This document shows positions 1,538 through 55,170 of a stretch of 64,000 nucleotides of DNA, piece by piece. The notes under the pieces were generated by a model. The model made no database searches and had not been told where the DNA came from. It was given only the letters and a program-made list of their open reading frames with translations. Positions within the stretch are counted from its first letter, which is position 1, and each line of letters opens with the position of its first letter. The stretch is taken from positions 62,001-126,000 of the forward strand of contig JAFPWG010000013.1 in the NCBI GenBank assembly GCA_017395045.1, in the 5' to 3' direction. This DNA is from Bacteroidales bacterium (GTDB lineage: Bacteria > Bacteroidota > Bacteroidia > Bacteroidales > UBA932). A program made the position numbers and the translations under genes.

Positions 1538-2428
1538 CTATGGAGCATCCAGATATCGGGCAACCTCCTCCATTTTCAAAGAGGTAACCCGGGCGATTTG
1601 GTGAATGTCGGCACTGAAGCGTCGGCGGAGCTGCCGGACCAGTTCCTGCCGCTGATTATCATCCAGTGTAGAAACCTCACTCTTGCCGAAGAATGAACGG
1701 CAGAGGTCCGGTATTGCTGCATAGAGAACCTGGTCCCGGAAGGAGGGGAGATCGTTTCCTTGAAACTCGCTTTTCCGCTTGGCTTTGGATGAATTCTGAA
1801 GGAAATAGTTCATCCGCTTTGGCTTTCGGAAGATGGACTCCACCAGGTTGACTGGCACATAGGATTCGGGGAGGATATACCCATCTTCCCCGACAATCCA
1901 ATGGGCCGGGAGGGCACGTTTGGTGTGCAATAGCTTATAGATGGCATGCCGGGACATTTCACCCAGTCGCATTCCTTTCTCAGTACGTACTTTGAAGAAC
2001 GTTCCGCCTGTTCCCCACGGATAGTCGGCCGGGGTCAGACAGATGTTGGCGGCCGGAGGATTCATCTGCGTATAGGCGACGGCCCTTTCGAACGATTCGT
2101 CATCCGGGGAGATTCTTTGGATGTCCACCCGGTTCCGTCTCAGCAAATCCCTGACTCCGTACTTCAAGGCCACGAATCGAGAGCAGTCGGCCTTGAACTC
2201 GTTGATAAAGTTCCGTGCTTCCTCCTCGGTACAGTAGAGTACGAAATGGACATGATTAGACATCAGCACGAAGGCCAGGATCATCACTCCACAAACGAAG
2301 GATGCGATGGCTACATAGTTCATCCCAACCCTGTAGTCCTCGTTGTCCCTGAACCAGAGCCCTTTCTTCAAATGCTCCGTCGTGACCAGATAATAGCCTT
2401 TAGAAGGGGTAGTATTCGCTTTCACCAT
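1538..2428 (-). CDS. REP-associated tyrosine transposase (RAYT, Y1/IS200-like)
   Basis: A 296-residue single-strand DNA transposase of the HUH/Y1 type. The motif SNHVHFVLY (~residues 60-70) holds the HxH metal-binding pair, and VAYTQMNP (~125) holds the candidate catalytic Tyr in the YxxxNP context seen in RAYTs. It is longer than IS200 TnpA, which fits the RAYT branch. I place the start at ATG 2428; a GTG at 2452 adds eight residues. Palindromic GTAG repeats flank the gene on both sides, which strongly supports a RAYT rather than a classical IS. A TACTTTTG promoter lies at 2493-2500 and the leader contains a 7-bp hairpin (2469-2486). Codon use is more AT-rich than the neighbours. Confidence 0.88.
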   Translation of the reverse strand: MVKANTTPSKGYYLVTTEHLKKGLWFRDNEDYRVGMNYVAIASFVCGVMILAFVLMSNHVHFVLYCTEEEARNFINEFKADCSRFVALKYGVRDLLRRNRVDIQRISPDDESFERAVAYTQMNPPAANICLTPADYPWGTGGTFFKVRTEKGMRLGEMSRHAIYKLLHTKRALPAHWIVGEDGYILPESYVPVNLVESIFRKPKRMNYFLQNSSKAKRKSEFQGNDLPSFRDQVLYAAIPDLCRSFFGKSEVSTLDDNQRQELVRQLRRRFSADIHQIARVTSLKMEEVARYLDAP

Positions 2429-2492
2429 TGATCCGGGACGCTCAAATCTCACACACTTTAATCTGTTCCGGAAGCGATTGCTTCCGCTTCTA

Positions 2493-35303: not shown

Positions 35304-35311
35304 TATATTTG
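35304..35311 (+). promoter_or_regulatory. Promoter -7 element of rfbA
   Basis: TATATTTG, 6 bases before the rfbA ATG, implying a nearly leaderless transcript. It allows rfbA-pgl to be transcribed separately from the long upstream operon. Confidence 0.6.
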
Positions 35312-37341: not shown

Positions 37342-37429
37342 TCCGTGATCACCCTTTTGCGACTTGGTGATTGTTCTCTTGCGTCGTGTTGACCGATCTC
37401 TTGCGAGTTAGCGATCCTCCTCCTGCGAC
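37342..37429. repeat. Four tandem 22-bp units
   Basis: Units at 37342-37363, 37364-37385, 37386-37407 and 37408-37429 have exactly equal length and share a GAT near the front and a C-T-rich run leading into (T/C)TGCG near the end. They begin just after the lactonase stop codon. Divergence between units is substantial. Function unknown. Confidence 0.65.
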
Positions 37430-37921
37430 ATATTTAATTGAATATCAACGTTTTAGCCGTTAGCCTTTGTTCTTTCCGGGACATAGACTAGCGGCTAATC
37501 GTTTGATGCTCAGTTTGTTGAATCGCAGGGAGTTGGGTAAAGAGAGAACGATTCGAGGGGAGATGATAGATAAATTTGTATTACGGGACAAGGGGTAAAT
37601 GCTAAATTTTTGACTATTAGATTGTTGCATCGCATGGATCTAAGGGACTGTGGGGTGGTGGATGAAGATAAGGAAATGGGCGAGCACTCGCGAAGTCGCA
37701 AAATAGGCCGAAAACGTCGCCCCGGCCGTGCTGGAGCATTTGTGAGGTGACATTATGGGCCAAAAACGTCGCCCCGGCCGTGCCGGAGCTTTTGTCAGGT
37801 TACAAAAGAGGTAATCCTGCGACGTATCTGGTTAATAATCAATTGTTTGAGCGCTTGCCTTTGTTCTTTTTGGGACACAGGCTAACGGCTAATCGTTTGG
37901 TAATCAATTTGTTACATCGCA
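37421..37921. repeat. Dispersed 107-bp repeat, two full copies and one partial
   Basis: Copy A 37421-37527 and copy B 37815-37921 align without gaps over 107 bases; by eye about 81 positions match. A shorter, more decayed copy C (~37575-37636) shares GGGACA, GCTAA and the ATCGCATGG end. Each copy is followed by G-rich sequence. The first part of copy A coincides with the end of the fourth 22-bp unit. Copy B lies within a possible 81-codon frame (37747-37992) that I do not accept as a gene. Confidence 0.6.
37706..37801. repeat. Tandem pair of ~45-bp GC-rich units
   Basis: 37706-37750 and ~37757-37801 share AACGTCGCCCCGGCCGTG and the following GGAGC(A/T)TTTGT(G/C)AGGT, with few mismatches. They lie between partial copy C and copy B of the 107-bp repeat. 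Confidence 0.6.
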
Positions 37922-38180
37922 TGGCACGAGCAGGGCTTGGGGGGATTCGAGGAGGCTCGAGGGTGCTCAGGAGGGATGAGGGTGTGAACTAGAAGGTTGA
38001 TGATGGCTGGATGAGGAGAGTGACGAGGGTGAGGATAGGGTGTGGATAAGGAAGTTGATAAGAAGGTTGACGAGAAGGTGGATGAGGATGGGGTAATAAA
38101 TTGTAATAGTGTTAACTGATTGATAATTAGTTTGATATGCGGAAAGAGGTGCGCGGGAGGGCGTGCCTCTTTTTCGATGC
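37922..38180. other. Purine-rich non-coding stretch
   Basis: From about 37930 to 38100 the plus strand is strongly G+A rich, with imperfect repeats around GAAGGTTGA and GGATGAGG. No credible coding frame is seen on either strand. The rest, up to the ugd promoter, is unremarkable AT-rich DNA with a GCGCGGGAGGGCGTGCC segment before a T-run (38170-38174) that could weakly terminate. Confidence 0.5.
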
Positions 38181-42261: not shown

Positions 42262-43311
42262 ATGTCAATTTTCAAGGATAAGGTCCTCCTCATCACCGGA
42301 GGAACCGGCAGTTTCGGAAACGCGGTACTGAACCGTTTCCTGAGAACGGATATCGGCGAGATCCGTATCTTCTCCCGCGACGAGAAGAAACAGGACGACA
42401 TGCGCCACGACTTCCAGTCCCGCATGCCCGACGTGGCGAACAAGATCAAGTTCTACATAGGCGACGTGCGCAACAAAAGCACGCTGAAATACGCCATGAA
42501 GGGCGTGGATTACGTGTTCCACGCCGCCGCCCTGAAGCAGGTGCCTTCCTGCGAGTTTTTCCCGATGGAGGCCGTGAAAACCAACGTGATCGGAACGGAC
42601 AACACGCTGGACGCAGCCATCGACGCCGGTGTGAAATGCGTGATCTGCCTCTCCACCGACAAAGCCGCGTACCCCATCAATGCGATGGGAATCAGCAAGG
42701 CGCTGGAGGAGAAGGTGGCCGTGGCCAAGAGCCGGAACTCCGGGAACACGAAGATCTGCTGCACCCGCTACGGCAACGTTATGTGCAGCAGGGGCTCCGT
42801 GATTCCCCTCTGGATCGACCAGATCCGGAAGGGCAATCCCATCACCCTCACCGAGCCCAAGATGACCCGCTTCATCATGAGCCTCGAGGAGGCCGTGGAC
42901 CTGGTCCTCTTCGCCTTCGAGAACGGCAAGAACGGAGACATCCTGGTCCAGAAAGCCCCCGCCTGCACCATCCAGACGCAGGCCGAGGCCGTGTGCGAAC
43001 TTTTCGGGGGCAAGAAGGAAGACATCAAGGTGATCGGCATCCGCCATGGCGAAAAGATGTACGAGACGCTCCTGACGAAGGAGGAGGCGGCGAAGGCCAT
43101 CGACATGGGCGATTTCTACGCCGTCCCGGCCGACAACCGCGACCTGAACTACGACAAGTACTTCAAGGATGGCGACACCAAACGGGCTCTGATCGAGGAG
43201 TTTAACTCCGACAACACCCGCCGCCTGGACCTCGAAGAGACCAAGGCCAAGATCGCGAGCCTGCAGTACATCCAGAACGAACTGAACGGAATTCCTAACA
43301 TTGTGAAGTGA
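42262..43311 (+). CDS. CapE/FnlA-type UDP-GlcNAc 4,6-dehydratase/5-epimerase
   Basis: A 349-residue extended SDR. LLITGGTGSFGNAVLNRFL binds NADP, FSRDEKKQDDMRHDF is the group signature, HAAALKQVPSCEFFPMEAVKTN (split: HAAALKQVPSC, EFFPMEAVKTN) and STDKAAYPINAMGISK (with the Met-Gly-x-x-Lys variant of YxxxK) follow. The enzyme starts UDP-FucNAc/UDP-PneNAc type synthesis; CapF and CapG partners are not seen in the window. It overlaps sodB by one base. Confidence 0.9.
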   Translation: MSIFKDKVLLITGGTGSFGNAVLNRFLRTDIGEIRIFSRDEKKQDDMRHDFQSRMPDVANKIKFYIGDVRNKSTLKYAMKGVDYVFHAAALKQVPSCEFFPMEAVKTNVIGTDNTLDAAIDAGVKCVICLSTDKAAYPINAMGISKALEEKVAVAKSRNSGNTKICCTRYGNVMCSRGSVIPLWIDQIRKGNPITLTEPKMTRFIMSLEEAVDLVLFAFENGKNGDILVQKAPACTIQTQAEAVCELFGGKKEDIKVIGIRHGEKMYETLLTKEEAAKAIDMGDFYAVPADNRDLNYDKYFKDGDTKRALIEEFNSDNTRRLDLEETKAKIASLQYIQNELNGIPNIVK

Positions 43312-43889
43312 TGCATACCCTCCTCGATTTACCCTGCCCGATCAACGCCCTGGAACCGGTGATCAGCGCCCGTACGCTGGAATTCCACCACGGCAAGCAC
43401 CTCCAAGGCTACGTGGACAACCTGAACAAACTCATCGCCGGAACGGAGTATGAGAACCTGTCCCTGGAGGACATTGTCCGCCAGGCAAGCGGCGCCGTGT
43501 TCAACAACGCCGGCCAGATCCTGAACCACAACCTGTATTTCTTGCAGTTCGCCCCGAAGCCGTCATCCCCGGCCCCGACAGGCAAACTTCTGAAGCAGAT
43601 TGAGGGGCAGTGGGGGAGCCTGGACGCCTTCAAGGCCGACTTCGTGGCCAAAGGCATCGGCCTCTTCGGCTCCGGCTGGGTCTGGCTCCAGGCCGATGCC
43701 TCCGGCGCCCTCTCTATCGCCCAATACTCCGGCGCCGACAACCCCGTCGCCCACGGCCTCAAACCCCTCCTGACCTTCGACGTGTGGGAGCACGCCTACT
43801 ATCTTGATTACCAGAACCGTCGCGCCGCGCACCTGGAGGCGTTGTGGGGGATTGTGGAGTGGGGGAAGGTGGAGGAGAGATTTCATTGA
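43311..43889 (+). CDS. sodB: Superoxide dismutase (Fe/Mn)
   Basis: A 192-residue dismutase. Metal ligands are visible as the first His in LEFHHGKHLQGYVDNL, the second in LNHNLYFLQF, Asp in LLTFDVWEHAYYLDYQNR and His in the same block. GSGWVWLQ is the core Trp motif. The ATG at 43311 overlaps the dehydratase stop (TGATG). It is an ordinary stress gene at the edge of the mosaic region; the AT-rich DUF4062 gene starts 9 bases after its stop. Confidence 0.95.
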   Translation: MHTLLDLPCPINALEPVISARTLEFHHGKHLQGYVDNLNKLIAGTEYENLSLEDIVRQASGAVFNNAGQILNHNLYFLQFAPKPSSPAPTGKLLKQIEGQWGSLDAFKADFVAKGIGLFGSGWVWLQADASGALSIAQYSGADNPVAHGLKPLLTFDVWEHAYYLDYQNRRAAHLEALWGIVEWGKVEERFH

Positions 43890-43898
43890 CGCAATAAG

Positions 43899-45074
43899 AT
43901 GGCTAAAACAGTAGTATTCGTTAGTTCAACCTGTTATGACCTGTCTCAAATCCGTAAAGATTTGGAAGATGGGATTCGCGAAATGGGGCATGAACCAATG
44001 CTATCTGAATCGAAGGTTTTTCCTGTAGATCCTTTGTTGACTTCTGAGGAGAACTGTATTAATGCTGTACGTAATTATGCGGATGTATTTGTACTGATCA
44101 TCGGAAATAGATATGGATATAAGCTTGAGTCTGGCAAGTCGATAACGAATACGGAATATCTCACAGCGATAAACAAAGGTATCCCGGTTTACACCTTCTC
44201 TCTCAAACAGATGGTTAATATCCTTCCCGTGTGGAAGCATAATCGTGGAGGAGATTATAGCCATATTGTTGACGATAACAAGGTATTTGAGTTTCTGGAG
44301 GATGTCAGAGAGAAAAGATCAAAATGGAACTTTGAATTTGAGTCAGCTCAGGATATTCTGAGTATTTTCAAGTCCCAAATGTCGATTCTCTTCAGGAGTT
44401 CGCTGAATAGTTGGTTAAGACTGGGAGGCAGCAAACCGATTTATCCGGAGGATCTTTCGGCCCATTCATTGAAGCTTCTTGTGGAGAAACCTGAAGCATA
44501 CGAGTATCGTCTGTTCTTTCAGATGCTTCAGGATGAGGTTGAGAAATATCATTATTTGAAGAAGGATTGTGACCATGCTATCCATATCCAGTCTGGAATC
44601 TTTCTTAATGAGTCAAAACAGTATCTGGACTGGCAACGTAATAAACTAACCCAGTTGCATGAATCATTAGATGTACTGAACAAACTCTTTACGGTTCTTG
44701 CTCAATACATGGGAGAGCCCGGCGTTCCGTCCGATATCGACGGCCTTCACTATGTCGCTAAAAGGATTGGAGATTACTATGCCAATTTGCTGAATTGGGT
44801 ATTCGATGTCCGCAGCGCATTTGTTCCTGAGGTATTTCATCCTCTCAAGGATCTGGTTGCAAAGTTACCCTTGCTTGCGATTCAGACACTGGAAGAATGG
44901 CCATCTACCTCTCTTCAGAAGATAGAGTCCAGTCTGCGAGCTTTATCTGAAGGTTCGCTCAAAAAAGGATCAGAGATAAACCTTGTACTGAAATTAGGTT
45001 TTGATGAAGAGGTCTTGAATCAGTTTAAAGAAGAGATAAATAGATTAAGTTTGAACCTGACCGATTTCTTGTGA
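43899..45074 (+). CDS. DUF4062 domain protein, putative defence gene
   Basis: A 391-residue protein. The first ~110 residues are a DUF4062 (TIR-like fold) domain: TVVFVSSTCYDLSQIRKDL, SESKVFPVDP, CINAVRNYADVFVLIIGNRYG (split: CINAVRNYADV, FVLIIGNRYG) and ITNTEYLTAINKGIPV with the conserved Glu. The remaining ~280 residues are helical (coiled-coil-like QYLDWQRNKLTQLHESL) and unassigned. DUF4062 proteins are common in defence and signalling gene clusters. The gene is visibly more AT-rich than its left neighbours and is followed 38 bases later by a small gene that may be its partner. Confidence 0.8.
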   Translation: MAKTVVFVSSTCYDLSQIRKDLEDGIREMGHEPMLSESKVFPVDPLLTSEENCINAVRNYADVFVLIIGNRYGYKLESGKSITNTEYLTAINKGIPVYTFSLKQMVNILPVWKHNRGGDYSHIVDDNKVFEFLEDVREKRSKWNFEFESAQDILSIFKSQMSILFRSSLNSWLRLGGSKPIYPEDLSAHSLKLLVEKPEAYEYRLFFQMLQDEVEKYHYLKKDCDHAIHIQSGIFLNESKQYLDWQRNKLTQLHESLDVLNKLFTVLAQYMGEPGVPSDIDGLHYVAKRIGDYYANLLNWVFDVRSAFVPEVFHPLKDLVAKLPLLAIQTLEEWPSTSLQKIESSLRALSEGSLKKGSEINLVLKLGFDEEVLNQFKEEINRLSLNLTDFL

Positions 45075-45112: not shown

Positions 45113-45721
45113 ATGGACATCATACTGCTAGATAACAACTTGGATGAAATCGCCAATTCTTCGTGTAGTGACTTGTTGACTGACGAAGAAAAGCGGAAGG
45201 TTTGCAATTATGCTGGATTAGACCAGGAGACGTCAGATTTCAAGAGGATCAATATTGGGCCAGGGGCAGATCTGTTTGTTATTCTTGCGGCGATTTGGAA
45301 GACTATTGAGGTGGTAGGGACCGTCTATACAGCAGTTGATTTATCCAAAAGGTTTGGGTCGTTTATTGAGAAGATAAATGAGTTTATCAAGAACCGCCAA
45401 CTGGTTTCCATCGATGAAGACGGTGCCAAATTGCTGGCGATGGATTATGTGATAAAGACCTTCAAGTCGGAATCAATAAAAGTACTTGACTTGAAAACGG
45501 TTATTCCAAGCGGTGGCGGTTCGTATGTAGAGTATCCGGAGCATCCGATAGCAATGACTCCACATCGATACTATATCTTCGTTTTTGAGATAGATGGTGG
45601 GGATACTGTTGTAATGGGAGTGAAATCAACGGGAGAAATGGAGGTAATCAAGGCTTTCGAATTTGATCCTTATGGATTAACGGAGGCTCGCACGCTTCGG
45701 GAATCTGATCGAGATGAATGA
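45113..45721 (+). CDS. Hypothetical protein with one hydrophobic segment
   Basis: A 202-residue protein not recognised. Residues ~50-75 (GADLFVILAAIWKTIEVVG) are hydrophobic and could insert in a membrane or form a buried helix. The C-terminal half looks like a small alpha/beta domain (YYIFVFEIDGGDTVVMGV). It shares base composition and orientation with the DUF4062 gene, 38 bases upstream, so the two probably form one cassette. No function is proposed beyond that. Confidence 0.6.
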   Translation: MDIILLDNNLDEIANSSCSDLLTDEEKRKVCNYAGLDQETSDFKRINIGPGADLFVILAAIWKTIEVVGTVYTAVDLSKRFGSFIEKINEFIKNRQLVSIDEDGAKLLAMDYVIKTFKSESIKVLDLKTVIPSGGGSYVEYPEHPIAMTPHRYYIFVFEIDGGDTVVMGVKSTGEMEVIKAFEFDPYGLTEARTLRESDRDE

Positions 45722-45863: not shown

Positions 45864-46928
45864 GTGAATTACAATCCAAATACAATCCAAACCATCCTCG
45901 TGACCGGCTCGGCCGGATTCATTGGCTCCAATCTCGTGCTGAGACTTCTTGAAAACGAGGAGCCGCTCAACATCGTAGGGCTTGACAACCTGAACGACTA
46001 CTATGATCCTTCGTTGAAGGAGTATCGGATGGGCGAGATCCAGAAGAAAGCCGAAACCGCCAAAAGGCATACCTACAAATTCATCAAGGGCGACCTTGCC
46101 GATAAGGCCCTGATTGACAGCCTCTTCGCGGAATGCCATTTCGATATCGTCGTGAACCTGGCCGCGCAGGCGGGTGTCCGGTATAGCATTGAGAACCCGG
46201 ATGCGTATATCCAGAGCAACATGATCGGGTTCTATAACATTCTGGAGGCCTGTCGGCATTATCCGGTGCAGCATCTGGTGTATGCCAGTTCCAGCAGCGT
46301 GTATGGCGGCAACAAGAAAGTCCCGTTCAGCACGGATGACAGGGTGGATAATCCGGTGAGCTTGTACGCGGCCACAAAGAAGAGCAACGAGCTCTTCGCT
46401 CACTGCTATTCCAAGCTGTACAACATCCCTACTACGGGCCTCCGCTTTTTCACCGTTTACGGTCCAGCCGGCCGTCCTGACATGGCTTATTTCGGATTTA
46501 CGAACAAACTGCTGAAAGGTCAGACCATCCAGATCTTCAACTACGGCAATTGCCGACGGGATTTCACCTATGTTGATGACATCGTGGAAGGCATTGTTCG
46601 TGTCATGCGCAAAGCCCCGGAAAGGAAGACCGGTGAAGATGGGCTGCCCATCCCTCCGTATGCCGTCTATAACATCGGCGGTGGCCAGCCCGAGAACCTG
46701 CTGGACTTTGTCAATATCCTCCAGGAGGAACTCGTCCGCGCCGGCGTGCTCCCCACGGACTACGACTTCGATGCCCATAAGGAACTCGTCCCCATGCAAC
46801 CGGGCGACGTCCCTACAACCTATGCCGACGCCTCCGCCCTCGAGAAGGATTTCGGCTTCATCCCGAAAATCACGCTCCGCGAAGGCCTGCGCAAATTCGC
46901 TGAGTGGTATAAAGCCTATTATCAGTAA
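45864..46928 (+). CDS. NAD-dependent epimerase, UDP-glucuronate 4-epimerase-like
   Basis: A 354-residue extended SDR: ILVTGSAGFIGSNLVLRLL, LDNLNDYYDPSLKEYR (the DYYD..LK signature of UDP-GlcA 4-epimerases), NLAAQAGVRYSIENP, YASSSSVYGGN and the catalytic SLYAATKKSNE. It would make UDP-galacturonate from the product of Ugd. The start is GTG 45864; no ATG is available before the conserved domain. The last ~128 codons have a second, truncated copy at 48.8-49.2 kb. Confidence 0.9.
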   Translation: MNYNPNTIQTILVTGSAGFIGSNLVLRLLENEEPLNIVGLDNLNDYYDPSLKEYRMGEIQKKAETAKRHTYKFIKGDLADKALIDSLFAECHFDIVVNLAAQAGVRYSIENPDAYIQSNMIGFYNILEACRHYPVQHLVYASSSSVYGGNKKVPFSTDDRVDNPVSLYAATKKSNELFAHCYSKLYNIPTTGLRFFTVYGPAGRPDMAYFGFTNKLLKGQTIQIFNYGNCRRDFTYVDDIVEGIVRVMRKAPERKTGEDGLPIPPYAVYNIGGGQPENLLDFVNILQEELVRAGVLPTDYDFDAHKELVPMQPGDVPTTYADASALEKDFGFIPKITLREGLRKFAEWYKAYYQ

Positions 46929-48061
46929 TGCAATATCACATTTTCAGTCCTTACCGTGTCTGTCCTTTAGGTGCCCATGTGGACCACCAGCACGGGTTAG
47001 TAACCGGTTTCGCCATTGATAAAGGCGTGGACCTGTGGTTTGATGTCAGTGATGACAGTATGCTCGTCTTGGATAGTGAAACTTTCACTGGCCATGTGGA
47101 GTTTGATATCGCCACGCCAACGCTGATCAAGCAGGGAAACTGGGGCGATTATGCGCGTGGAGCGAAGTTTGCCCTGCAGAAGCGGTTCAAACTCAGTAAG
47201 GGCGTTAAAGGAGTCATCAAGGGATCGTTACCGATTGGTGGACTTAGCAGCAGTGCTGCCGTTCTCATCGCTTATGTGATGGCTTTTGCCAAGGCCAATA
47301 GCATCAGCCTTGAGCCCTTCGAGGTGGTGAAGATCGCGTCGGAGGCGGAGCGTGAGTACATCGGCCTGAACAATGGTCTGTTGGATCAGGCTTGTATTGC
47401 CTTGGGAAAGAAAGACCACCTGCTCATGCTCGACTGCGAGTCCAATGAATATCGGCTCATCCCGAAAGCGGCCAATATGCCGGACTTCGAGTTGGGCATC
47501 TTTTTCAGCGGCCTTACCCGTAGTTTGATATCCAGTGACTACAACCTCCGTGTTACTGAGTGCAAGACTGCCGCATGGATTGTCCAGGCCTATGAAAACG
47601 TGCCCTTGAAGACCCACGACAAGACCTTCCTGAGGGATGTCCCTGAGAGCATGTTTAAACGCCATCGCGACGAAATGCCGCCTCGCTTCGCCCGGCGGGC
47701 TGAGCACTTCTACGGCGAACACAAGCGCGTCCGCGAAGGCATCACCGCCTGGGAAACCGGCAACCTGGAATGGTTCGGCTCCCTGAGCAAGGCCAGCTGC
47801 GACTCCAGCATCCACAACTACGAATGCGGCAGCCCTGAACTCCAGGCCATCTACCAGGTCATGCTCACGACCGATGGCATTTACGGCGGCCGCTTCTCCG
47901 GCGCCGGCTTCAAGGGCGCCTGCATCGCCCTGGTCGATCCGTCCAAGAAGGAAAGCATCGAGCAAACGATTACGGAAAGGTATCTTGCACAGTTCCCGCA
48001 GTATCGCGATTCTTTCAAGGTGTTTTTCTGCAAGTCTGACGACGGAGCCCGTTTCGTATGA
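46928..48061 (+). CDS. GHMP family sugar kinase (galactokinase-like)
   Basis: A 377-residue kinase. The N-terminal SPYRVCPLGAHVDHQHG corresponds to the galactokinase GRxNxxGEHxDY motif, SLPIGGLSSSAAVL is the ATP loop, and GGRFSGAGFKGACIALV is motif 3. It is followed directly by a sugar nucleotidyltransferase, so kinase plus pyrophosphorylase may salvage a free sugar (galacturonate or a related sugar is possible) into a nucleotide sugar. The exact sugar is not determinable. A 224-bp segment of this gene (47507-47730) is duplicated at 53556-53779. Confidence 0.85.
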   Translation: MQYHIFSPYRVCPLGAHVDHQHGLVTGFAIDKGVDLWFDVSDDSMLVLDSETFTGHVEFDIATPTLIKQGNWGDYARGAKFALQKRFKLSKGVKGVIKGSLPIGGLSSSAAVLIAYVMAFAKANSISLEPFEVVKIASEAEREYIGLNNGLLDQACIALGKKDHLLMLDCESNEYRLIPKAANMPDFELGIFFSGLTRSLISSDYNLRVTECKTAAWIVQAYENVPLKTHDKTFLRDVPESMFKRHRDEMPPRFARRAEHFYGEHKRVREGITAWETGNLEWFGSLSKASCDSSIHNYECGSPELQAIYQVMLTTDGIYGGRFSGAGFKGACIALVDPSKKESIEQTITERYLAQFPQYRDSFKVFFCKSDDGARFV

Positions 48062-48795
48062 AAACGATCGTAATTGCCGCCGGCTACGCGACCCGGCTGT
48101 ACCCGCTGACCGAGCACTTCCCGAAACCGCTCCTGCAGATTGGGAAGAGCACCATCCTGGACCGGATGCTGGATGACATCGACGGCATTCCGGAGATTTC
48201 CGAACACATTGTGGTGACGAATCACAAGTTCGCCTCCATTTTCGAGGAGTGGGCGAGGAGCAGGGAGCGTGTGCGTATCCTCGACGACGGGACGACCACC
48301 AACGAGACGAGGCTTGGCGCCGTGCGGGACCTGATCCTGGCCCTGGACACTTTCGGAATTGACGAAGATATCCTCGTCGTCGCGGCCGACAATATCCTTG
48401 AATTCAGTTTCAAGGATTTCGTAGAGGCCTACAAGCGCACACGGACCTCGATGATCATGTGCCACCACGAGCCTGAAATCTGGAAGCTTCAGCGGACCGG
48501 AGTAATTGAGGTCGACGGGAACATGCGCGTCCTGCAGATGCAGGAGAAGCCGCAGGAACCCGTCAGCCATTGGGCGGTCCCTCCGTTCTACCTGTACAGA
48601 CGGGAAGACCTGGACCTCATCCGGCATGCCGTTGAAAATGGATGCGGGGCCGATGCCCCCGGGAACCTGGCCCACTACCTGGTGGACCGGACCGTCCTCC
48701 ACGCTTGGCCCATGAACGGCGGCAGGTTTGACATCGGTTCACTGGATACGTATGAGGAAGCGAAGCGGAAGTATGGCGGGGATGTCTTTGAATGA
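48058..48795 (+). CDS. Sugar-phosphate nucleotidyltransferase
   Basis: A 245-residue GT-A-like nucleotidyltransferase: VIAAGYATRLYPLTEHFPKPLLQIG (split: VIAAGYATRLYPLT, EHFPKPLLQIG) is the NTP loop with Lys, VVAADNILEF holds the metal Asp, and LQMQEKPQEPVSHWAVPPFY is the sugar site. It overlaps the kinase stop by 4 bases and the following fragment by 4. Together with the kinase it should yield an NDP-sugar. The usual GGxGxRL loop is shortened to AAGYATRL. Confidence 0.9.
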   Translation: MKTIVIAAGYATRLYPLTEHFPKPLLQIGKSTILDRMLDDIDGIPEISEHIVVTNHKFASIFEEWARSRERVRILDDGTTTNETRLGAVRDLILALDTFGIDEDILVVAADNILEFSFKDFVEAYKRTRTSMIMCHHEPEIWKLQRTGVIEVDGNMRVLQMQEKPQEPVSHWAVPPFYLYRREDLDLIRHAVENGCGADAPGNLAHYLVDRTVLHAWPMNGGRFDIGSLDTYEEAKRKYGGDVFE

Positions 48796-49259
48796 ATGTA
48801 AAGTATTTTATCCGTGAGGATTGCAGTCCAAATAAAACCTTGACCATCCAGATCTACAACTACGGCAACTGCCGACGCGATTTCACCTATGTCGATGACA
48901 TCGTGGAAGGCATCGTCCGAGTTATGCGCAAAGCCCCGGAAAAGAAGAACGGCGAGGACGGATTGCCCGTCCCTCCGTATGCCGTTTACAACATCGGCGG
49001 CGGGCAGCCTGAGAACCTGCTGGACTTTGTCAATATCCTCCAGGAGGAACTCGTCCGCGCCGGCGTCCTCCCCGCCGACTACGACTTCGAGGCCCACAAG
49101 GAGCTCGTGCCGATGCAGCCCGGCGACGTCCCCACCACTTATGCCGATGCCTCCGCCCTCGAGCGCGATTTCGGGTTCACGCCGAAGATCACGCTGCGGG
49201 AAGGGCTCCGGAAGTTTGCCGAGTGGTTAATGCAGTATCAATTAGCCTTTGATTGCTAA
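48792..49259 (+). pseudogene. 3' fragment of a second UDP-glucuronate 4-epimerase gene
   Basis: From 48843 to 49227 the sequence aligns without gaps to 46524-46908 of the intact epimerase and keeps the frame (NYGNCRRDFTYVDDIVEGI, YNIGGGQPENLLDFVN, MQPGDVPTTYADASALE). The first ~16 codons are unrelated to that part; CAGTCCAAAT near 48828 resembles the intact gene's start region, so an internal deletion joining the first codons to codon ~220 at ACCATCC is likely. It lacks the whole NAD-binding domain and catalytic YxxxK, so it cannot be an epimerase. Frame intact for 155 codons. Confidence 0.85.
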
Positions 49260-49273
49260 ATAGATTCGATACA

Positions 49274-49409
49274 ATGAAAAGCATCGTCCTCGCCGGCGGC
49301 TCCGGTCCACGTCTTTACCCCATTACCAAGGGAGTCAGCAAGCAGCTTCTGCCCATTTATGATGGGTCGATGGTGTGTGAGGCCATTAGCGGGCTGATGT
49401 TTGCAGGGA
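49274..49409 (+). pseudogene. rmlA 5' fragment, copy 1
   Basis: Codons 1-45 resemble rfb[17 protein letters not shown] then [14 protein letters not shown], followed by a decaying [14 protein letters not shown]. Similarity then stops and the frame runs on to 49543 with unrelated residues. It lies directly upstream of the AT-rich AbiH gene and directly downstream of the epimerase fragment. It is closer to copies 2 and 3 than to the intact rfbA (shared AGTCAGCAAGCAGCT and GATGGGTCGATGG with copy 2). Confidence 0.85.
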
Positions 49410-49517
49410 CCTTCCATATCAAGACATCTTTTTGGGCGAATGAGATTATACACTATGTGAGCGGATTGACCTCCGTAAAGCATAGAGACGTAGCTGTGAA
49501 TACTAACACATCCCTTT

Positions 49518-50510
49518 ATGAACATTGTCTATTTCATAGGTAACGGCCTTGACATAGGTCTTGGACTGAAGACCCGTTATCTGGATTTTTACAAGTATTA
49601 CTGTAGCCTTGATGACGGCCAGAGAAATGAGGATGTTATCAAGTTGCGAGATTCCATAGCGAAGGGGAAGGAAGACTGGAAAGATTTGGAGTATCAATTA
49701 GGGCAGTATACTATCAATGTGAAAGATGCGGAATCCATGGAGCGAATTTGTCTGGATTTGAGTGATTCGCTCCGTGAGTATCTCCTTCGGGAGCAGGAGA
49801 AAGTGAAAGCAGAAGATTTCGACAGGAATTGCTTTATTAACAACCTAATGCACCCTGAGTCTTTTTTGCTGCCGACCGATAGCGAGATTCTTTATAACGG
49901 TATGTCTAACATCAGTGATAGGTCAATCAATATCATAACCTTAAACTACACGGATACCCTGGAGAAGATTCTCTTGCTTGGGACAAAGGGGGTAGCTGGC
50001 GACGGTATTGATTCCGCGGGGATTCGATGGAAATTTAACAGTCTTCTTCATGTTCATGGAACTTTGAGCGGATCTCCGCTGGTAGGGGTCGATAATGTTA
50101 CTCAGATAGCTAATAAAGAGTTTGCGGCTAATGAAGATCTCCGAGAACTCATGTTGAAGCCCAATGCAAATGTTGCAATTAAGTCAGGTATCGATAATCG
50201 TTGCAGAGACCTGATTCGTGCAGCCAATTTGATTGTGCTTTTTGGGGTATCACTTGGCGAAACAGACCTTATTTGGTGGAAGGAAGTTGGAGCAAGAGTG
50301 AAGAAGGGGGCCAAAGCGGTCATTCTTCATCACGATGCCGGTCTCGGGATAGAGCATCATGAAAATTTAATTGCCCGTTATGAAAGGCGAGTGAGATCTG
50401 ATTTCGTTAAAAAAGCGTCTTTAGAAGGGGTGGAAAAAGATTGGCGAAATGGTATATTTGTTACATTTGATCATACATTCTTGAGTGGTGTGGTTAAGAG
50501 TACAGTGTAA
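49518..50510 (+). CDS. abiH: AbiH family protein (phage abortive infection)
   Basis: A 330-residue protein with the AbiH layout: [20 protein letters not shown] at the start, TLNYTDTLE (~140), [10 protein letters not shown] (~170) and a C-terminal [17 protein letters not shown]. Known AbiH confers abortive infection in Lactococcus; the fold is related to SIR2-like Rossmann proteins and the mechanism is not settled. The gene is clearly more AT-rich than the sugar genes on both sides and stands alone between two blocks of gene fragments. A start codon upstream in the same frame is not evident. Confidence 0.85.
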
Positions 50511-50644
50511 TGTTCCCTTATCTTCTCCTCCATGGGCCGATGGTGACGTCAACTCAGCGATATTTAACATTTGAGTCGGGGAAAGAATCAGCTCCGAATA
50601 CCCATGGAACCACATCGCGTTTCCACAAAGGTTAAACCATTATC

Positions 50645-50872
50645 ATGTCATACAACCCCCTAACCCTCCCTAAAGATTCCCTCTTTCTCGTCACCGGCGG
50701 CGCCGGCTTCATCGGCTCGAACCTGTGCGAGGCGATTCTTAACCTGGGCTATAGGGTCCGCTGCCTGGACGATCTGTCCACGGGCAAGCAGGCCGATGTG
50801 GATCTCTTCGTCAACCACCCGAACTGTGGGTCCATAAAGGGCGGCATCAAGGATTTGTGGACTCGGATATAA
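50645..50872 (+). pseudogene. 5' fragment of a UDP-GlcNAc 4-epimerase-like gene
   Basis: Seventy-five codons: LFLVTGGAGFIGSNLCEAIL and RVRCLDDLSTGKQADVDLF match the NAD-binding N-terminus of WbpP/Gne-type epimerases; after IKGGIKDLWTRI a stop occurs where the family continues for ~270 residues. No remainder is found downstream. GC-rich, in contrast to the AbiH gene before it and the genes after it. It is not a copy of the 45864 epimerase. Confidence 0.8.
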
Positions 50873-50916
50873 TTCTCCCGTCAATTGAATTATTATAGAA
50901 ACAGGAACACGATACT

Positions 50917-51057
50917 ATGAAAGGCCACGTCCTCGCCGGCGGCTCCAGCACACGTCTTTACCCGATTACCAAGGGAGTCAGCAAGCAGCTTCTGCCCATC
51001 TATGATGGGTCGATGGGGTATGATCCCAGCAGCGAGCTGATGCGGACAGCGGCTTGA
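50917..51057 (+). pseudogene. rmlA 5' fragment, copy 2
   Basis: Forty-six codons: [30 protein letters not shown], then a decayed [13 protein letters not shown] and stop. It aligns to rfbA codons 1-46 without gaps. The bases just before its ATG (GATACT) also match those before rfbA (CATACT). It precedes the AT-rich 131-residue gene and the TcmP pair. Confidence 0.85.
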
Positions 51058-51170
51058 TTCTGGACCACAAAGTTAGCCAAGTTCTAATCGAACAGTTTTC
51101 AGAGCCTTGTAAGTTGTTATAATTATACTTTAAACCCTATCGGAGTTTATTTCTCCGGACAGTAGTGAAT

Positions 51171-51560
51171 ATGAATACAGAATCAGTACTTGAACGATTA
51201 AGTGTTAATCCACCGGAACATTTTTGCTATTGTACTGTTGAGGCTAATGACGTTTACAAAGACATCAATGGAAAACCTTTACGTGTCGACTACGATTGCG
51301 ATATATTGAAGATTGAGTTTGTAAAAGACTCACAAGGTAAGTATAAACCTACAATTATGCTTTGGAGTAACGGGGGAGTTTCTGTCCTAATTCACGTTGT
51401 AGGTTATGGCGACTTTTGTTTCCCGGTTACTGGAAAGAACGAGCATTACGAGGAAAGGCTAAAGTCATATTTCTGGTTCAAGAAGTTCGTGGAAAATGGG
51501 GGAGATGAAGTTGAATTGCTAAGAATTTGCGACTGGATTGAAAAGGCGTGCATATCGTAG
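51171..51560 (+). CDS. Hypothetical protein, AT-rich
   Basis: A 129-residue protein not recognised (ATG 51171; GTG 51165 is an alternative). It has an alternating strand pattern (LRVDYDCDILKIEFV, IMLWSNGGVSVLIHVVGYG) then a helical acidic C-terminus. No signal or membrane segment. It lies between rmlA copy 2 and tcmP, 105 bases before the latter, with the same base composition, so it may belong to that system or be an immunity or accessory protein; this is inference. Confidence 0.5.
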   Translation: MNTESVLERLSVNPPEHFCYCTVEANDVYKDINGKPLRVDYDCDILKIEFVKDSQGKYKPTIMLWSNGGVSVLIHVVGYGDFCFPVTGKNEHYEERLKSYFWFKKFVENGGDEVELLRICDWIEKACIS

Positions 51561-51665
51561 TCACTATCGTGATTTAGCTCGCATTTTTCATCATAAACTA
51601 ATGACATCTTATAGGCGGGATTAAAGCTAGAGTTTTCCAATCATCTGTTTTTACGGAATAAAAGT

Positions 51666-52595
51666 ATGTCTAAACGTATTATTTTTCCTCAGATTCTTAA
51701 TCCCCAGTGTATTAGGAATTGTAATAAGGAGCAACGGCGTACGACATGTACAGACAATGATATCTGTAAGATAGCATCAGCGTTGGATGACTCCTTGCCT
51801 ATCAGATGTGTGGGCACCTGGGCTCAGAAGAAAATATACTTTATTGCTCAGTATTTTGGGATTTTTGCTACGGGAATGCATAACAAGTGGAAGTTGAATT
51901 ATGTGGAGATTTGTAGTGGACCGGGAAAATGTATTGATCGAAAAAGTGGGTACGAATTTGATGGAACAGCTTTGAGTGTTTTAAAGCATGACTCTTTCAA
52001 GTACTTGAAGAATGCATTTTTCTTTGATTATGATCAAAATGTAGTCAGTATTTTGAATCAACGCATACAGAGTTTGCTGATTCCTAATGCAAAGGCTTAT
52101 GTTGGCGATTATTGCAACGCTAATTCTATTTGCGACGTTCTACGCTCTCAAGTGACTTCTGAGAGCCTCAACCTTGTGGTTATTGATCCAACGGATTGCA
52201 GTGTCCCTTTCTCGTGTATCGAGTCATTAAAATCTACGCTGTCAAACATGGATATCATCATTAACGTGGCGACACGAATGGATTTTAATAGAAATGTAGA
52301 CAACATCCTCTCAGATCCAAAGAAATACGCTGATGTTAAGGATAAGTATGAGGCATTCTTGAATAAAAGGGGATTCTTTGATTCTTTGAGGAGGGGCTCA
52401 TTTAATGTTGATATGCGTAAGGCTTTTCGCGATGCTTTTAAAGATAGTCTTAGCAGAATAGGATATAGTCATTTTGAAATAAAGGAGGTTGAGAATTATT
52501 ATGATATCTTGTTTGCTTCGGAAAGCGAAAGAGGACTCGATTTCTGGAATAAAGCAAATAAGTTGACCTTTGATGGACAATACAGCCTGTTTTGA
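51666..52595 (+). CDS. tcmP: Three-Cys-motif partner protein TcmP
   Basis: A 309-residue protein with a methyltransferase-like Rossmann core: KIYFIAQYFGIFATGM leads into LNYVEICSGPGKC (~93-105, where the family has DxFAGPG), DGTALSVL, and LVVIDPTDCSVPF (~170). The N-terminus has several Cys residues. TcmP is the named partner of the three-Cys-motif protein encoded next, and the pair is scattered among bacteria on mobile or accessory DNA. Biochemical role is not established. One base separates it from the next ATG. Confidence 0.82.
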   Translation: MSKRIIFPQILNPQCIRNCNKEQRRTTCTDNDICKIASALDDSLPIRCVGTWAQKKIYFIAQYFGIFATGMHNKWKLNYVEICSGPGKCIDRKSGYEFDGTALSVLKHDSFKYLKNAFFFDYDQNVVSILNQRIQSLLIPNAKAYVGDYCNANSICDVLRSQVTSESLNLVVIDPTDCSVPFSCIESLKSTLSNMDIIINVATRMDFNRNVDNILSDPKKYADVKDKYEAFLNKRGFFDSLRRGSFNVDMRKAFRDAFKDSLSRIGYSHFEIKEVENYYDILFASESERGLDFWNKANKLTFDGQYSLF

Positions 52596-52596
52596 G

Positions 52597-53370
52597 ATGA
52601 AAAAGGAATTTGGCACATATGAATGGGCAGATTCGACCATAAACATTATTAATGGATGTGGGCATAATTGCAGGTATTGTTTTAGTCGTGAGATGGCTTC
52701 TCGTTTTAAACGGAAGGATCCTCGTTCGTGGGAAAACGAAGAGCTCAATCTAATGCAGTATAATCAGAGAATTCCTCACAAGGCCGGTGTAATCATGTTT
52801 CCCTCCACTCATGACATCACTCCTGATAATCTTCAATATACACTTCCTTTTATTGTTAGAATTTTAGAAAGGGGAAATCGTGTATTAGTTGTGTCAAAGC
52901 CTCACTTAGAATGTGTGACTCGGATTTGTACTATATGTGCTGAATATAGGGATAGAATGCTGTTTAGGTTTACAATAGGCTCGAAAGACAATGAAACTCT
53001 TTCTTTTTGGGAGCCTAATGCGCCTAACTATGAGGAGAGGAAAGAGTCTTTGATTTATGCGTTTAACAATGGTTTTCGAACAAGTTTGTCTTGTGAACCG
53101 ATGCTAGATGAAGATGTGGAAGCGCTTATAGAAGATTTGCAAAGCTATGTATCAGATGAGATTTGGGTTGGAAAAATGAATTTTGTACTTCGTCGACTAC
53201 ATGCGAATGGTTATAACGATTTAGAGAGCATCGCGGCGGCTCAAAGAATTCTGGATATTCAATCTGATGAGAATATTGTATCATTGGTCGCCAGGCTAAA
53301 CAATAATCCCAAAATCAGGTGGAAAGATAGTATTAAGGCAGTTATGGCGAAATACGTGAGCGTTCGATAG
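52597..53370 (+). CDS. Three-Cys-motif protein (radical SAM-like, Gp37/Gp68-related)
   Basis: A 257-residue protein with INGCGHNCRYCFSREMASRF: Cys21, Cys25 and Cys28 form CX3CX2C, the iron-sulfur pattern of radical SAM enzymes. A TIM-barrel-like continuation includes VIMFPSTHDITPDNL, RVLVVSKPHLE, FRFTIGSKDN and SLSCEPMLDED, resembling phage Gp37/Gp68 proteins. It is translationally next to TcmP; a start at 52570 would overlap TcmP. The pair is a recognised but uncharacterised two-gene system, here in AT-rich DNA between rmlA fragments. Confidence 0.8.
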   Translation: MKKEFGTYEWADSTINIINGCGHNCRYCFSREMASRFKRKDPRSWENEELNLMQYNQRIPHKAGVIMFPSTHDITPDNLQYTLPFIVRILERGNRVLVVSKPHLECVTRICTICAEYRDRMLFRFTIGSKDNETLSFWEPNAPNYEERKESLIYAFNNGFRTSLSCEPMLDEDVEALIEDLQSYVSDEIWVGKMNFVLRRLHANGYNDLESIAAAQRILDIQSDENIVSLVARLNNNPKIRWKDSIKAVMAKYVSVR

Positions 53371-53441
53371 TGCATGTTTATTCGGATCTCCAACTATGAC
53401 CACATTTCATCATCATCTTGGATTCATTAATATTTGACCCA

Positions 53442-53876
53442 GTGAAAGCCCGCGTCCTACCCACTGTCTCCGTCGCAAGATTCTACCCCATTACCAAGGG
53501 AGTCAGCAAGCAGCTCCTGCCCATCTATGACAAACCGATTGTGTATGAGCCAATTAGCGGCATGTCCCGGAGTTCTGTGTCCAGCGACTACAACCTCTGC
53601 GTTAAGGAATGCAAGACCGCCGCTTGGATTGTCCAGGCCTATGAGAACGTGCCCCTGAAGACCCACGACAAGACTTTCTTGCGGGATGTCCCTGAGAGCA
53701 TGTACAAGCGTCATCGCGACGAAATGCCGCCTCACTTCGCACGGCGGGCCGAGCACTTCTACGGCGAGCACATGCGTGTTTATTCTTCATTTGTTACCTG
53801 GCTTATGGCGCTGGTAGGTACCACGAGAATACTGTTTGGCGAAAGAGAACCGAAGCGCATGTCTGTGGTCAACTAA
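53442..53876 (+). pseudogene. Chimeric fragment: rmlA 5' copy 3 fused to GHMP kinase segment
   Basis: 53442-53560 resembles rfbA codons 1-40 (first 12 decayed, then [19 protein letters not shown]). At AGCGG (53556-53560) it changes in frame to a 224-bp segment matching kinase 47507-47730 without gaps ([42 protein letters not shown]). AGCGG is also present at 47507-47511 and in rmlA copy 1, so short-homology joining is likely. Beyond 53779 the frame continues to a stop at 53876 with unrelated residues. It cannot be a functional kinase or transferase. Confidence 0.85.
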
Positions 53877-54502
53877 TGCTGTATTTGCATGGAGGGTTTG
53901 AGTTGGCTCATTTCAATTTGTCTTATTTATTGTCAGTTTCAATGAGAGAGGAATATGAATTTAACGACGGCCTACAGTACTCTGATGAAGTATTGAATGC
54001 TGTGCGTTATGGCTATCAGTATCGCTTGGAAGCAGAGAAGTATTGCCAAGAAAAGAAGATCCATGTTAATCATTGTCTGGAAGATGCTCCTGCTCTTCTT
54101 TGCTGGATTGTTAAACTGATTATTGATGGGGTTGCCTGGGATTCACTGAAGAAGACGGCGAGATCTGTAGTAGAACATTTTCAGCGAGAGAAAAGGACTA
54201 TACCTCCCATGGTAAATGAGATTCTGACCGATCAGCAAAGTTTTCAACAACTTTATGAGTATATTAAAGAGTTCAAAGAGGGGAAATTGAATATCTCTGA
54301 CAGAGAAAGGGAGTATATTATCGAAGAGATCGAGGCAGATTATTGCGGGAAACAAGCAGCAAAGATTTATGAGGCGGAAAAACGTTTCCCCACAGTCGAA
54401 GAGTACAAACGTATTTATCGTGATGCCCATGAGGCAGCGATGATGATTCTACCCTTGAGGGAGAGGCACAGTATCAACGAAGACGTCTCGTCGGAAAGGT
54501 GA
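53876..54502 (+). CDS. Hypothetical protein, mostly helical
   Basis: A 208-residue protein not recognised. It is rich in charged helices (DREREYIIEEIEADYCGKQ, RFPTVEEYKRIYRDAH). ATG 53942 is a possible alternative start (MREEYEFND). AT-rich like the other cargo genes, and placed directly after the chimeric rmlA/kinase fragment. No membrane segment. It may be a further defence-type cargo gene, but nothing in the sequence shows its activity. Confidence 0.5.
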   Translation: MLYLHGGFELAHFNLSYLLSVSMREEYEFNDGLQYSDEVLNAVRYGYQYRLEAEKYCQEKKIHVNHCLEDAPALLCWIVKLIIDGVAWDSLKKTARSVVEHFQREKRTIPPMVNEILTDQQSFQQLYEYIKEFKEGKLNISDREREYIIEEIEADYCGKQAAKIYEAEKRFPTVEEYKRIYRDAHEAAMMILPLRERHSINEDVSSER

Positions 54503-54562: not shown

Positions 54563-54922
54563 ATGCCAACAGTAACCACTTATATCCTCTCCATGCTCCT
54601 GGGGCCTCGGGCAATTCAGGGAATCAATGCATTGAAGGCAACGTACAATTTGCCTGCATTAATCCATTTGGTCGGTACCTTGTCGATGGTTGAGTCCGGA
54701 ATCCGCCCCACCTTGACGGATGATGAGATTCGACGCGGGTTGGAGGAATTCAAGAACATTTTGGATCTGGGAATCGACAACCGGACCGATCTAGCGGAGT
54801 GGCAAAAAGAAATGAAGAAGAATGGGAACGCATATCTTGTCAACGGTTGCTATGGAGAGATTTTATGCATGTTAGGGAGGAACGGATACTCAATGCGAAT
54901 TAACCATCAAGGTAATTCTTGA
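54563..54922 (+). CDS. Small hypothetical protein
   Basis: A 119-residue protein not recognised. It starts with a hydrophobic stretch (TYILSMLLGPRAI), then LTDDEIRRGLEEFKNIL and a helical middle. It lies 60 bases after the preceding hypothetical gene. Composition is intermediate between cargo and sugar genes. It could be a real small gene or a remnant. Confidence 0.4.
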   Translation: MPTVTTYILSMLLGPRAIQGINALKATYNLPALIHLVGTLSMVESGIRPTLTDDEIRRGLEEFKNILDLGIDNRTDLAEWQKEMKKNGNAYLVNGCYGEILCMLGRNGYSMRINHQGNS

Positions 54923-54960: not shown

Positions 54961-55170
54961 ATGACTCAACTGACTGATCAAGAACGGACTGCCCAGATGA
55001 ACGACATGCGCTCGTTCGATGAGTAAATGCCTTGCGTGGGTATTTTCTGGTACGATCCGGCCGATCGCAGTTTCTTCGGCGTACGGAAGAAGGAAATCAC
55101 TCCGCAGATGGTCGAAGATGTGGCGGAGAAAGGGGGCCTTTATCAGTTATTGTTACCTTCGCTACCTTGA
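54961..55170 (+). pseudogene. Remnants of small unknown reading frames
   Basis: Two abutting frames: 21 codons at 54961-55026 and 47 codons at 55027-55170 (VGIFWYDPADRSFFGVRKK). The latter resembles the N-terminus of small Bacteroidota proteins of unknown function starting VGIFWYD, but stops early. A further open stretch from 55260 reads MEFGWTDIDNRWLPL, possibly the other end of the same former gene. GC is high again here. I treat the stretch as a decayed gene. Confidence 0.4.

Follow-up and report, generated by a model that had tools for sequence, protein, structure and literature searches.

Hotspots of defence genes and the insertion of genes assisted by homology are both already known in bacteria. 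For the type VI secretion system immunity arrays of Vibrio cholerae, the excerpted text of PMC5361080 proposes homology-facilitated illegitimate recombination, with one homologous anchor and one illegitimate join; insertions are serial, remnants are left beside new modules, and orphan immunity genes pile up. Excerpts from the same paper cite Rhs displacement, in which orphaned 3' regions accumulate. In Pseudomonas aeruginosa, the core defence hotspots cDHS1 and cDHS2 are described, in extracts of PMC10250203, with tRNA or tmRNA genes in their flanks and core genes on both sides, and the abstract of PMC5398294 describes a single variable locus of Streptococcus suis that shifts among defence types. 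Here we analyze a 64,000-nucleotide stretch of a Bacteroidales genome (the window), in which short pieces of sugar genes, among them three truncated 5' ends ("stubs") of rmlA, alternate with AT-rich genes of defence type behind a gene for Fe/Mn superoxide dismutase (SOD). Among open-licence PMC titles and abstract starts, we found no published description of sugar-gene stubs between defence genes, or of SOD-linked defence hotspots in polysaccharide clusters.

On balance, we regard this stretch as a probable defence-gene hotspot within a surface-polysaccharide cluster, in which the stubs would have been left as scars by successive recombination events, each relying on sugar-gene homology at one end and joining illegitimately at the other. 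The layout recurs with different cargo, the stubs are homologous to one another, one stub is a chimera whose two parts overlap by a 5-bp word, and the cargo is AT-rich where the stubs are richer in GC. The three rmlA copies that the initial annotation had placed at 49274, 50917 and 53442 (stubs 1 to 3) were recovered by a direct-repeat search of the window as a 133-bp family, with members at 35311 (the intact gene), 49267, 50910 and 53435. A DNA search of the entire genome (2.67 Mb in 42 contigs) found these same four rmlA places, all inside the window. The further claim that the copies resemble each other more than the intact rfbA holds for stub 2, which is 88% identical to stub 1 over the 133 bp, but not for stub 3, which over the same length is hardly closer to stub 1 than is the intact gene (72% versus 71%); its greater closeness comes from a central stretch (86% over 77 bp). 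The natural stop comes after 89, 46 and 144 codons in stubs 1, 2 and 3, the last being fused to a galactokinase (galK) piece, and 49, 42 and 38 codons align to RmlA. The annotated 3' piece of an epimerase, 5' piece of a second epimerase and kinase piece were likewise confirmed, by repeats and blastn or, for the second epimerase, by Pfam. The direct-repeat search pairs the first epimerase piece with its intact counterpart (46523 to 48842, 89% over 300 bp) and the kinase piece with its own (47507 to 53556, 86% over 224 bp). Since blastn E-values among the copies run from 3e-18 to 2e-134, the resemblance is far beyond chance. The pieces are as follows.

48842..49250, + strand: 3' piece of an epimerase gene, 87% over 386 bp to 46523-46908
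49274..49402, + strand: rmlA 5' stub 1, 49 codons aligning to RmlA (repeats and alignment)
50526..50547, + strand: 22 bp identical to sequence just ahead of the first rmlA stub in genome G003 (blastn E 1e-4)
50645..50868, + strand: 5' piece of a second epimerase gene (Pfam Epimerase 5e-9 over 37 residues)
50917..51057, + strand: rmlA 5' stub 2, 46 codons to the stop (repeats and alignment)
53442..53560, + strand: rmlA 5' stub 3, in which the motif GGS has become TVS, likewise in the second G003 stub (repeats and alignment)
53556..53779, + strand: internal galactokinase piece, in frame after stub 3, 86% to 47507-47730

In the chimera, the matches of stub 3 and of the galactokinase piece share five base pairs (AGCGG). 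We ruled out an assembly artefact as the source of the copies: stubs 2 and 3 diverge from stub 1 by 12% and 28%, and like layouts occur in independent genomes, in G003 on a 273-kb contig and in G073 on a 110-kb one. Here G000 is the genome of the window, the other G numbers are genomes of the same genus, one per species, and L numbers are fetched loci.

The genes between the pieces differ from them in composition. The initial annotation had described AT-rich blocks alternating with the stubs (AbiH, then a TcmP/three-Cys pair, then further genes), and both profile matches and GC content bear this out: the sugar-gene pieces have 53.6-59.4% GC and the defence-type and unknown genes 37.8-43.0%, with a 119-residue open reading frame (ORF) at 54563 at 46.7%. 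The left wall and the cargo are listed below.

43311..43889, + strand: Fe/Mn superoxide dismutase gene, bounding the hotspot on its left (Pfam Sod_Fe_C 8e-36, Sod_Fe_N 1e-25)
43899..45074, + strand: DUF4062 gene, AT-rich cargo (Pfam 3e-20, GC 40.9%)
45113..45721, + strand: AT-rich cargo gene for an unknown 202-residue protein, no Pfam, PADLOC or NCBIfam match
49518..50510, + strand: AbiH cargo gene (PF14253, 6e-32)
51171..51560, + strand: cargo gene for an unknown 129-residue protein, no Pfam, PADLOC or NCBIfam match
51666..52595, + strand: TcmP, three-Cys-motif partner, PADLOC PDC-M41A (TIGR04474 1.4e-22; PDLC04636 5e-13)
52603..53370, + strand: radical-SAM/DUF5131-like partner, PDC-M41B (Radical_SAM PF04055 4e-8; PDLC04639 2e-5)
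53942..54502, + strand: unknown cargo gene, whose listed ORF starts at 53876
55027..55170, + strand: fragment of a gene that encodes 157 residues in G057 and 155 in G152 (sequence match)

The first cargo gene begins 9 bp past the SOD stop codon, and the start of AbiH overlaps the reading frame of stub 1 by 26 nt. TcmP and its radical-SAM partner together form a candidate system, PDC-M41, in PADLOC. For the gene at 53942, the later start is suggested because a look-alike ORF in G090 starts later. Relatives of AbiH in named genomes were found at 18 loci, with best-segment identity of at most 34%.

The same arrangement exists in other species of the genus, so it is neither unique to this genome or assembly nor a simple one-time duplication. 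The proposed layout of fragment plus different cargo does recur, in a few genomes, at the same place (G003 and G189) and with stubs of other sugar genes (G073, G081 and G027); that the stubs are active anchors is doubtful. A DNA search of 151 genomes of the genus led us to open 29 rmlA places in other genomes (L005-L033), of which 27 were intact or nearly intact and two were not (G003 and G073). Five new loci opened after a search of 249 genomes of the family all carried intact rmlA. A protein search of 300 genomes with the RmlA start (best 150 matches, plus a full listing for 28 other genomes with at least four matches) gave truncated rmlA, among the matches listed, in G003 (two copies), G189 (one) and G073 (one decayed copy) besides the window. 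Truncated-looking matches in G010, G025 and G144 were left out of this count, and those in G175 and G142 were rejected as contig ends.

In G003, the order is capD, SOD, a ParA-like gene, SIR2_2, a cytidylyltransferase-like 5' piece (40% over 58 aligned positions with a gap, E 2e-7), an rmlA stub of 44 codons, Abi_alpha, a second rmlA stub of 30 codons and an epimerase gene. In G189, SOD is followed by an AAA_21 ATPase, RloB, DUF4145, Abi_alpha, an rmlA stub of 48 codons and a wecB-like gene cut by the contig end. Therefore, one position holds differing defence genes together with the same type of stub. AAA-ATPase/RloB-like genes (named by resemblance) and Abi_alpha again lie behind SOD in G252, and different defence modules follow SOD in several species of the genus, giving a conserved flank with variable content. 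The far-side neighbour is not conserved among the loci opened, being an epimerase in G003, a wecB-like gene in G189 and other genes elsewhere. capD and SOD fall within a single match in two of 200 genomes, namely G000 and G003, and lie about 4 kb apart on one contig in G146.

Some SOD genes of the genus have features of their own. The SOD gene of G189 (L054, 5895-6665, - strand), and apparently also that of G090 (L058), carries repeated in-frame inserts of the CHSERSEES type, which look like short dispersed repeats translated as protein. In G253 (L112), a second SOD gene lies downstream of an intact rmlA, itself after the first SOD gene.

Defence content was compared on the two sides of SOD. 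In 27 loci, the 6 kb downstream of SOD contain 117 ORFs, of which 101 were submitted to profile searches, and upstream there are 77, of which 72 were submitted; the 16 downstream ORFs left out were two stub frames and ORFs of housekeeping-looking loci, a choice that favours the hotspot reading. PADLOC models matched numbered 179 among the downstream ORFs versus 15 among the upstream ones, many of the 179 being ATPase models matched by the same six of 101 proteins. The best downstream PADLOC match among those shown was AbiLi (1.9e-78). Pfam matches downstream included AbiH (2), Abi_alpha (2), RloB (3), CAP12/Pycsar TIR (2) and DUF3990 (3).

Stubs of other sugar genes accompany some of these modules. 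In G073, two wecB-like 5' stubs flank an AAA ATPase and its 221-residue partner behind SOD, and the wecB-like copies match at 92% over 258 bp, 99% over 209 bp and 73% over 172 bp. A 41-codon capD stub in G081 stands between an AAA_21 ATPase and a DUF3791/DUF3990-like pair (named by resemblance and family counts). In G027, a wecB-like stub precedes AAA/nSTAND-like and TIR genes (nSTAND under the Pfam cut-off), beside capD rather than behind SOD. Just upstream of the G027 stub lies a 530-bp direct repeat, 99.4% identical (L069, 7998-8527 and 9421-9950). In G269, the DUF3990 gene opens with 48 nt matching the start of the 155-157-residue gene, a 16-codon in-frame fusion; the match runs from the start codon to an ATG at which the DUF3990 gene may itself begin. 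This fusion was found by eye and enters no tally.

We tallied such pieces with 121 gene queries in 43 loci (42 fetched plus the window, partly hand-picked, several fetched for their stubs). After 8 of 25 reported rows were dropped at contig or region ends, the 17 kept comprised twelve 5' stubs, with the decayed rmlA taking two rows, three 3' pieces and one internal piece, an excess of 5' ends (12:3, one-sided p 0.018). Detection bias was rejected as the cause of this excess: 45-residue pieces were found for 111 of 121 genes from the 5' end, 113 from the middle and 110 from the 3' end. A second set of 20 further SOD loci gave ten rows, four of them at edges; the rest were a single 5' piece, three 3' pieces and a gene split over two rows, the 5' piece and one 3' piece being opposite ends of the same decayed gene.

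How could such a locus arise? We propose serial recombination, anchored in a sugar gene at one end and closed at the other by an illegitimate or microhomology join; this would account for the recurrence of stubs, the turnover of cargo, the chimera in stub 3 and the fact that no integrase is visible. Incoming DNA would carry a defence module and part of a sugar gene, which would pair with a resident sugar gene or an older stub, and the other end would join by microhomology or illegitimately. Every round would add or swap cargo and leave the sugar-gene piece as a scar, and older stubs would supply homology to the following round. The wecB-like copies around the G073 ATPase pair fit an insertion-duplication step. 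Homologous pieces are present at module borders; for the other join, there is the one overlap (AGCGG) and a presumed join at the G269 ATG.

Several points weigh against serial recombination. The recombination itself, including pairing and strand exchange, we infer from one genome per species. Among the matches listed, rmlA stubs occur in four genomes only, in one of them as a decayed copy. Several SOD genes in the loci listed lack defence cargo, by eye mainly outside polysaccharide clusters, and those of the second set are likewise mostly outside such clusters and without defence cargo. Two of the twelve first-set 5' stubs have no adjoining cargo. Finally, the 5' excess was not repeated in the second set (1:3); combined, the ratio is 13:6 (p 0.08), and the stubs are not independent.

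The alternative that survives best, though we judge it rather unlikely, is plain decay: the locus would be a general dumping ground, in which deletions that accompany exchange of the polysaccharide locus break sugar genes, defence genes are gained independently, and stubs play no role in the entry of cargo. In its favour, a galK stub (30 codons, L064) and the decayed G073 rmlA are not beside defence cargo, 3' and internal pieces occur too, and most differences among the stubs of the window and of G003 change an amino acid, as in dead genes; 33 intact rmlA genes (528 pairs, 43 codons) average 21.4 silent and 4.7 changing differences. However, ten of the twelve first-set 5' stubs lie within about 600 bp of a cargo gene (counted from coordinates, without a shuffled control), and stubs are multiplied (rmlA three and two times, the wecB-like stub twice), which deletion alone would not do.

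A second alternative, which we consider doubtful, is that the 5' stubs are portable homology anchors, such that defence modules travel with a short sugar-gene start as cassettes that need no recombinase and would be exchanged between polysaccharide clusters or within them. That stubs recruit cargo is unproven, because the 5' excess failed in the second set and rmlA stubs are confined to the four genomes.

It is quite improbable that stubs are kept as a working translation start for the cargo behind them, through a short leader frame, coupling or fusion. All five G000 and G003 rmlA stubs have kept an open frame and align without gaps, stub 1 runs into the AbiH start as noted, a single nucleotide separates the end of the second G003 stub from the epimerase start (TAGTATG), and G269 holds an in-frame fusion; 5' ends alone would serve as leaders. 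Yet gaps of about 60-500 nt are seen at other stubs, the 5' excess did not recur, and the apparent TAATG at 53876 is doubtful given the later start of the similar ORF.

The rmlA stubs are free of coding constraint save for codons 15-30, which are kept in four of five copies. In these four stubs, five of 48 columns vary within the core versus 35 of 72 outside it (p 7e-6, scan-corrected 0.00025); none of 528 intact pairs reached the skew of the two stub pairs, and none of 20000 intact quartets that of the four stubs. Adding the fifth copy, the second G003 stub, with the left flank only, weakens the contrast (11/48 versus 20/42, p 0.012). Conservation is mainly at first and second codon positions (1/64 versus 23/96), with third positions at 3/32 versus 11/48 (p 0.14), and outside the core, differences fall on the codon positions in the way expected of neutral DNA. 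Positive selection in the flanks was ruled out, since of the 34 flank differences in the two stub pairs 11 are at third positions, the one-third expected under neutrality. Because the first two positions are protected and bear the signal, the core may be kept as a peptide and the case for a plain DNA site is weakened; judging from these alignments, it may be kept either as DNA, for homology, or as peptide. The second Y of YYP has become E or D in the four longer stubs, and stub 3 and the second G003 stub share TVS for GGS. These shared changes suggest that the stubs in the window and in G003 are related and did not arise as fresh copies of the window rmlA (the intact G003 rmlA lay outside the comparison).

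That the core is the attachment site of an unseen site-specific recombinase is extremely unlikely: although codons 15-30 are conserved in four stubs, this conservation may be at the peptide level, the fifth copy breaks the core, other sites use capD and wecB-like genes with junctions outside the core, and no integrase appears in the Pfam tables shown (25 of 108 families for SOD-downstream ORFs; part of the window ORFs scanned). Other signs of mobility were also sought. No tRNA was found at 33-64 kb of the window and no Rfam match at 43-58 kb. Plasmid records all fall short of 80% query coverage; the ten listed, out of 65, match no more than 7% of it, over epimerase or rmlA parts, falling on epimerase or rfbA genes where annotated. 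Three phage records, which carry no annotation, match only 1-2%, and the exact rmlA core is absent from the viral contigs searched.

The hotspot lies in a polysaccharide cluster with export, MatE-type flippase, Wzy_C-like and glycosyltransferase genes (Pfam; Wzy_C-like just under the cut-off). Its intact neighbours are these.

42262..43311, + strand: capD-like polysaccharide gene (Polysacc_synt_2, Pfam 8e-106), upstream neighbour, in one match with SOD here and in G003
45864..48795, + strand: intact epimerase, galactokinase-like and NTP-transferase genes, the first two matching two of the pieces

Elsewhere in the window, an Antibiotic_NAT-family acyltransferase gene (PF02522, 61618-62583) lies inside the polysaccharide cluster. 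Two direct-repeat families (110 nt and 52 nt) occupy 37421-37924, 3' of a lactonase gene, and border a stretch with strong GC skew (0.36). An ORF at 1538-2452 (- strand) resembles REP-associated transposase-like proteins by eye, with no Pfam match at 1e-5 and look-alikes in L081 and L089.

If serial recombination is at work, phage pressure could alter the surface coat and the intracellular defence repertoire in one and the same event, and in uncultured gut bacteria past exchanges of defence genes could be read from the sugar genes left broken. Were the stubs true anchors, surface-coat switching would be linked to the swapping of anti-phage defence in a single step. The layout also offers a search rule for new defence genes, namely to look between sugar-gene stubs and behind the SOD gene.

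Compared with the V. cholerae arrays, as excerpted from PMC5361080, this locus would share an anchor plus an illegitimate join, serial insertion and the remnants left behind; it differs in that its stubs come from unrelated sugar genes, are in many cases 5' ends, and separate defence modules from one another. Like cDHS1 and cDHS2 in the extracts of PMC10250203, it places variable defence systems beside a conserved gene; unlike them, it is walled on one side only, by SOD in a polysaccharide cluster, has gene stubs lying between its modules, and yielded no tRNA. With the S. suis locus (PMC5398294), whose abstract mentions no sugar-gene stubs, it shares one place with a changing type of defence.

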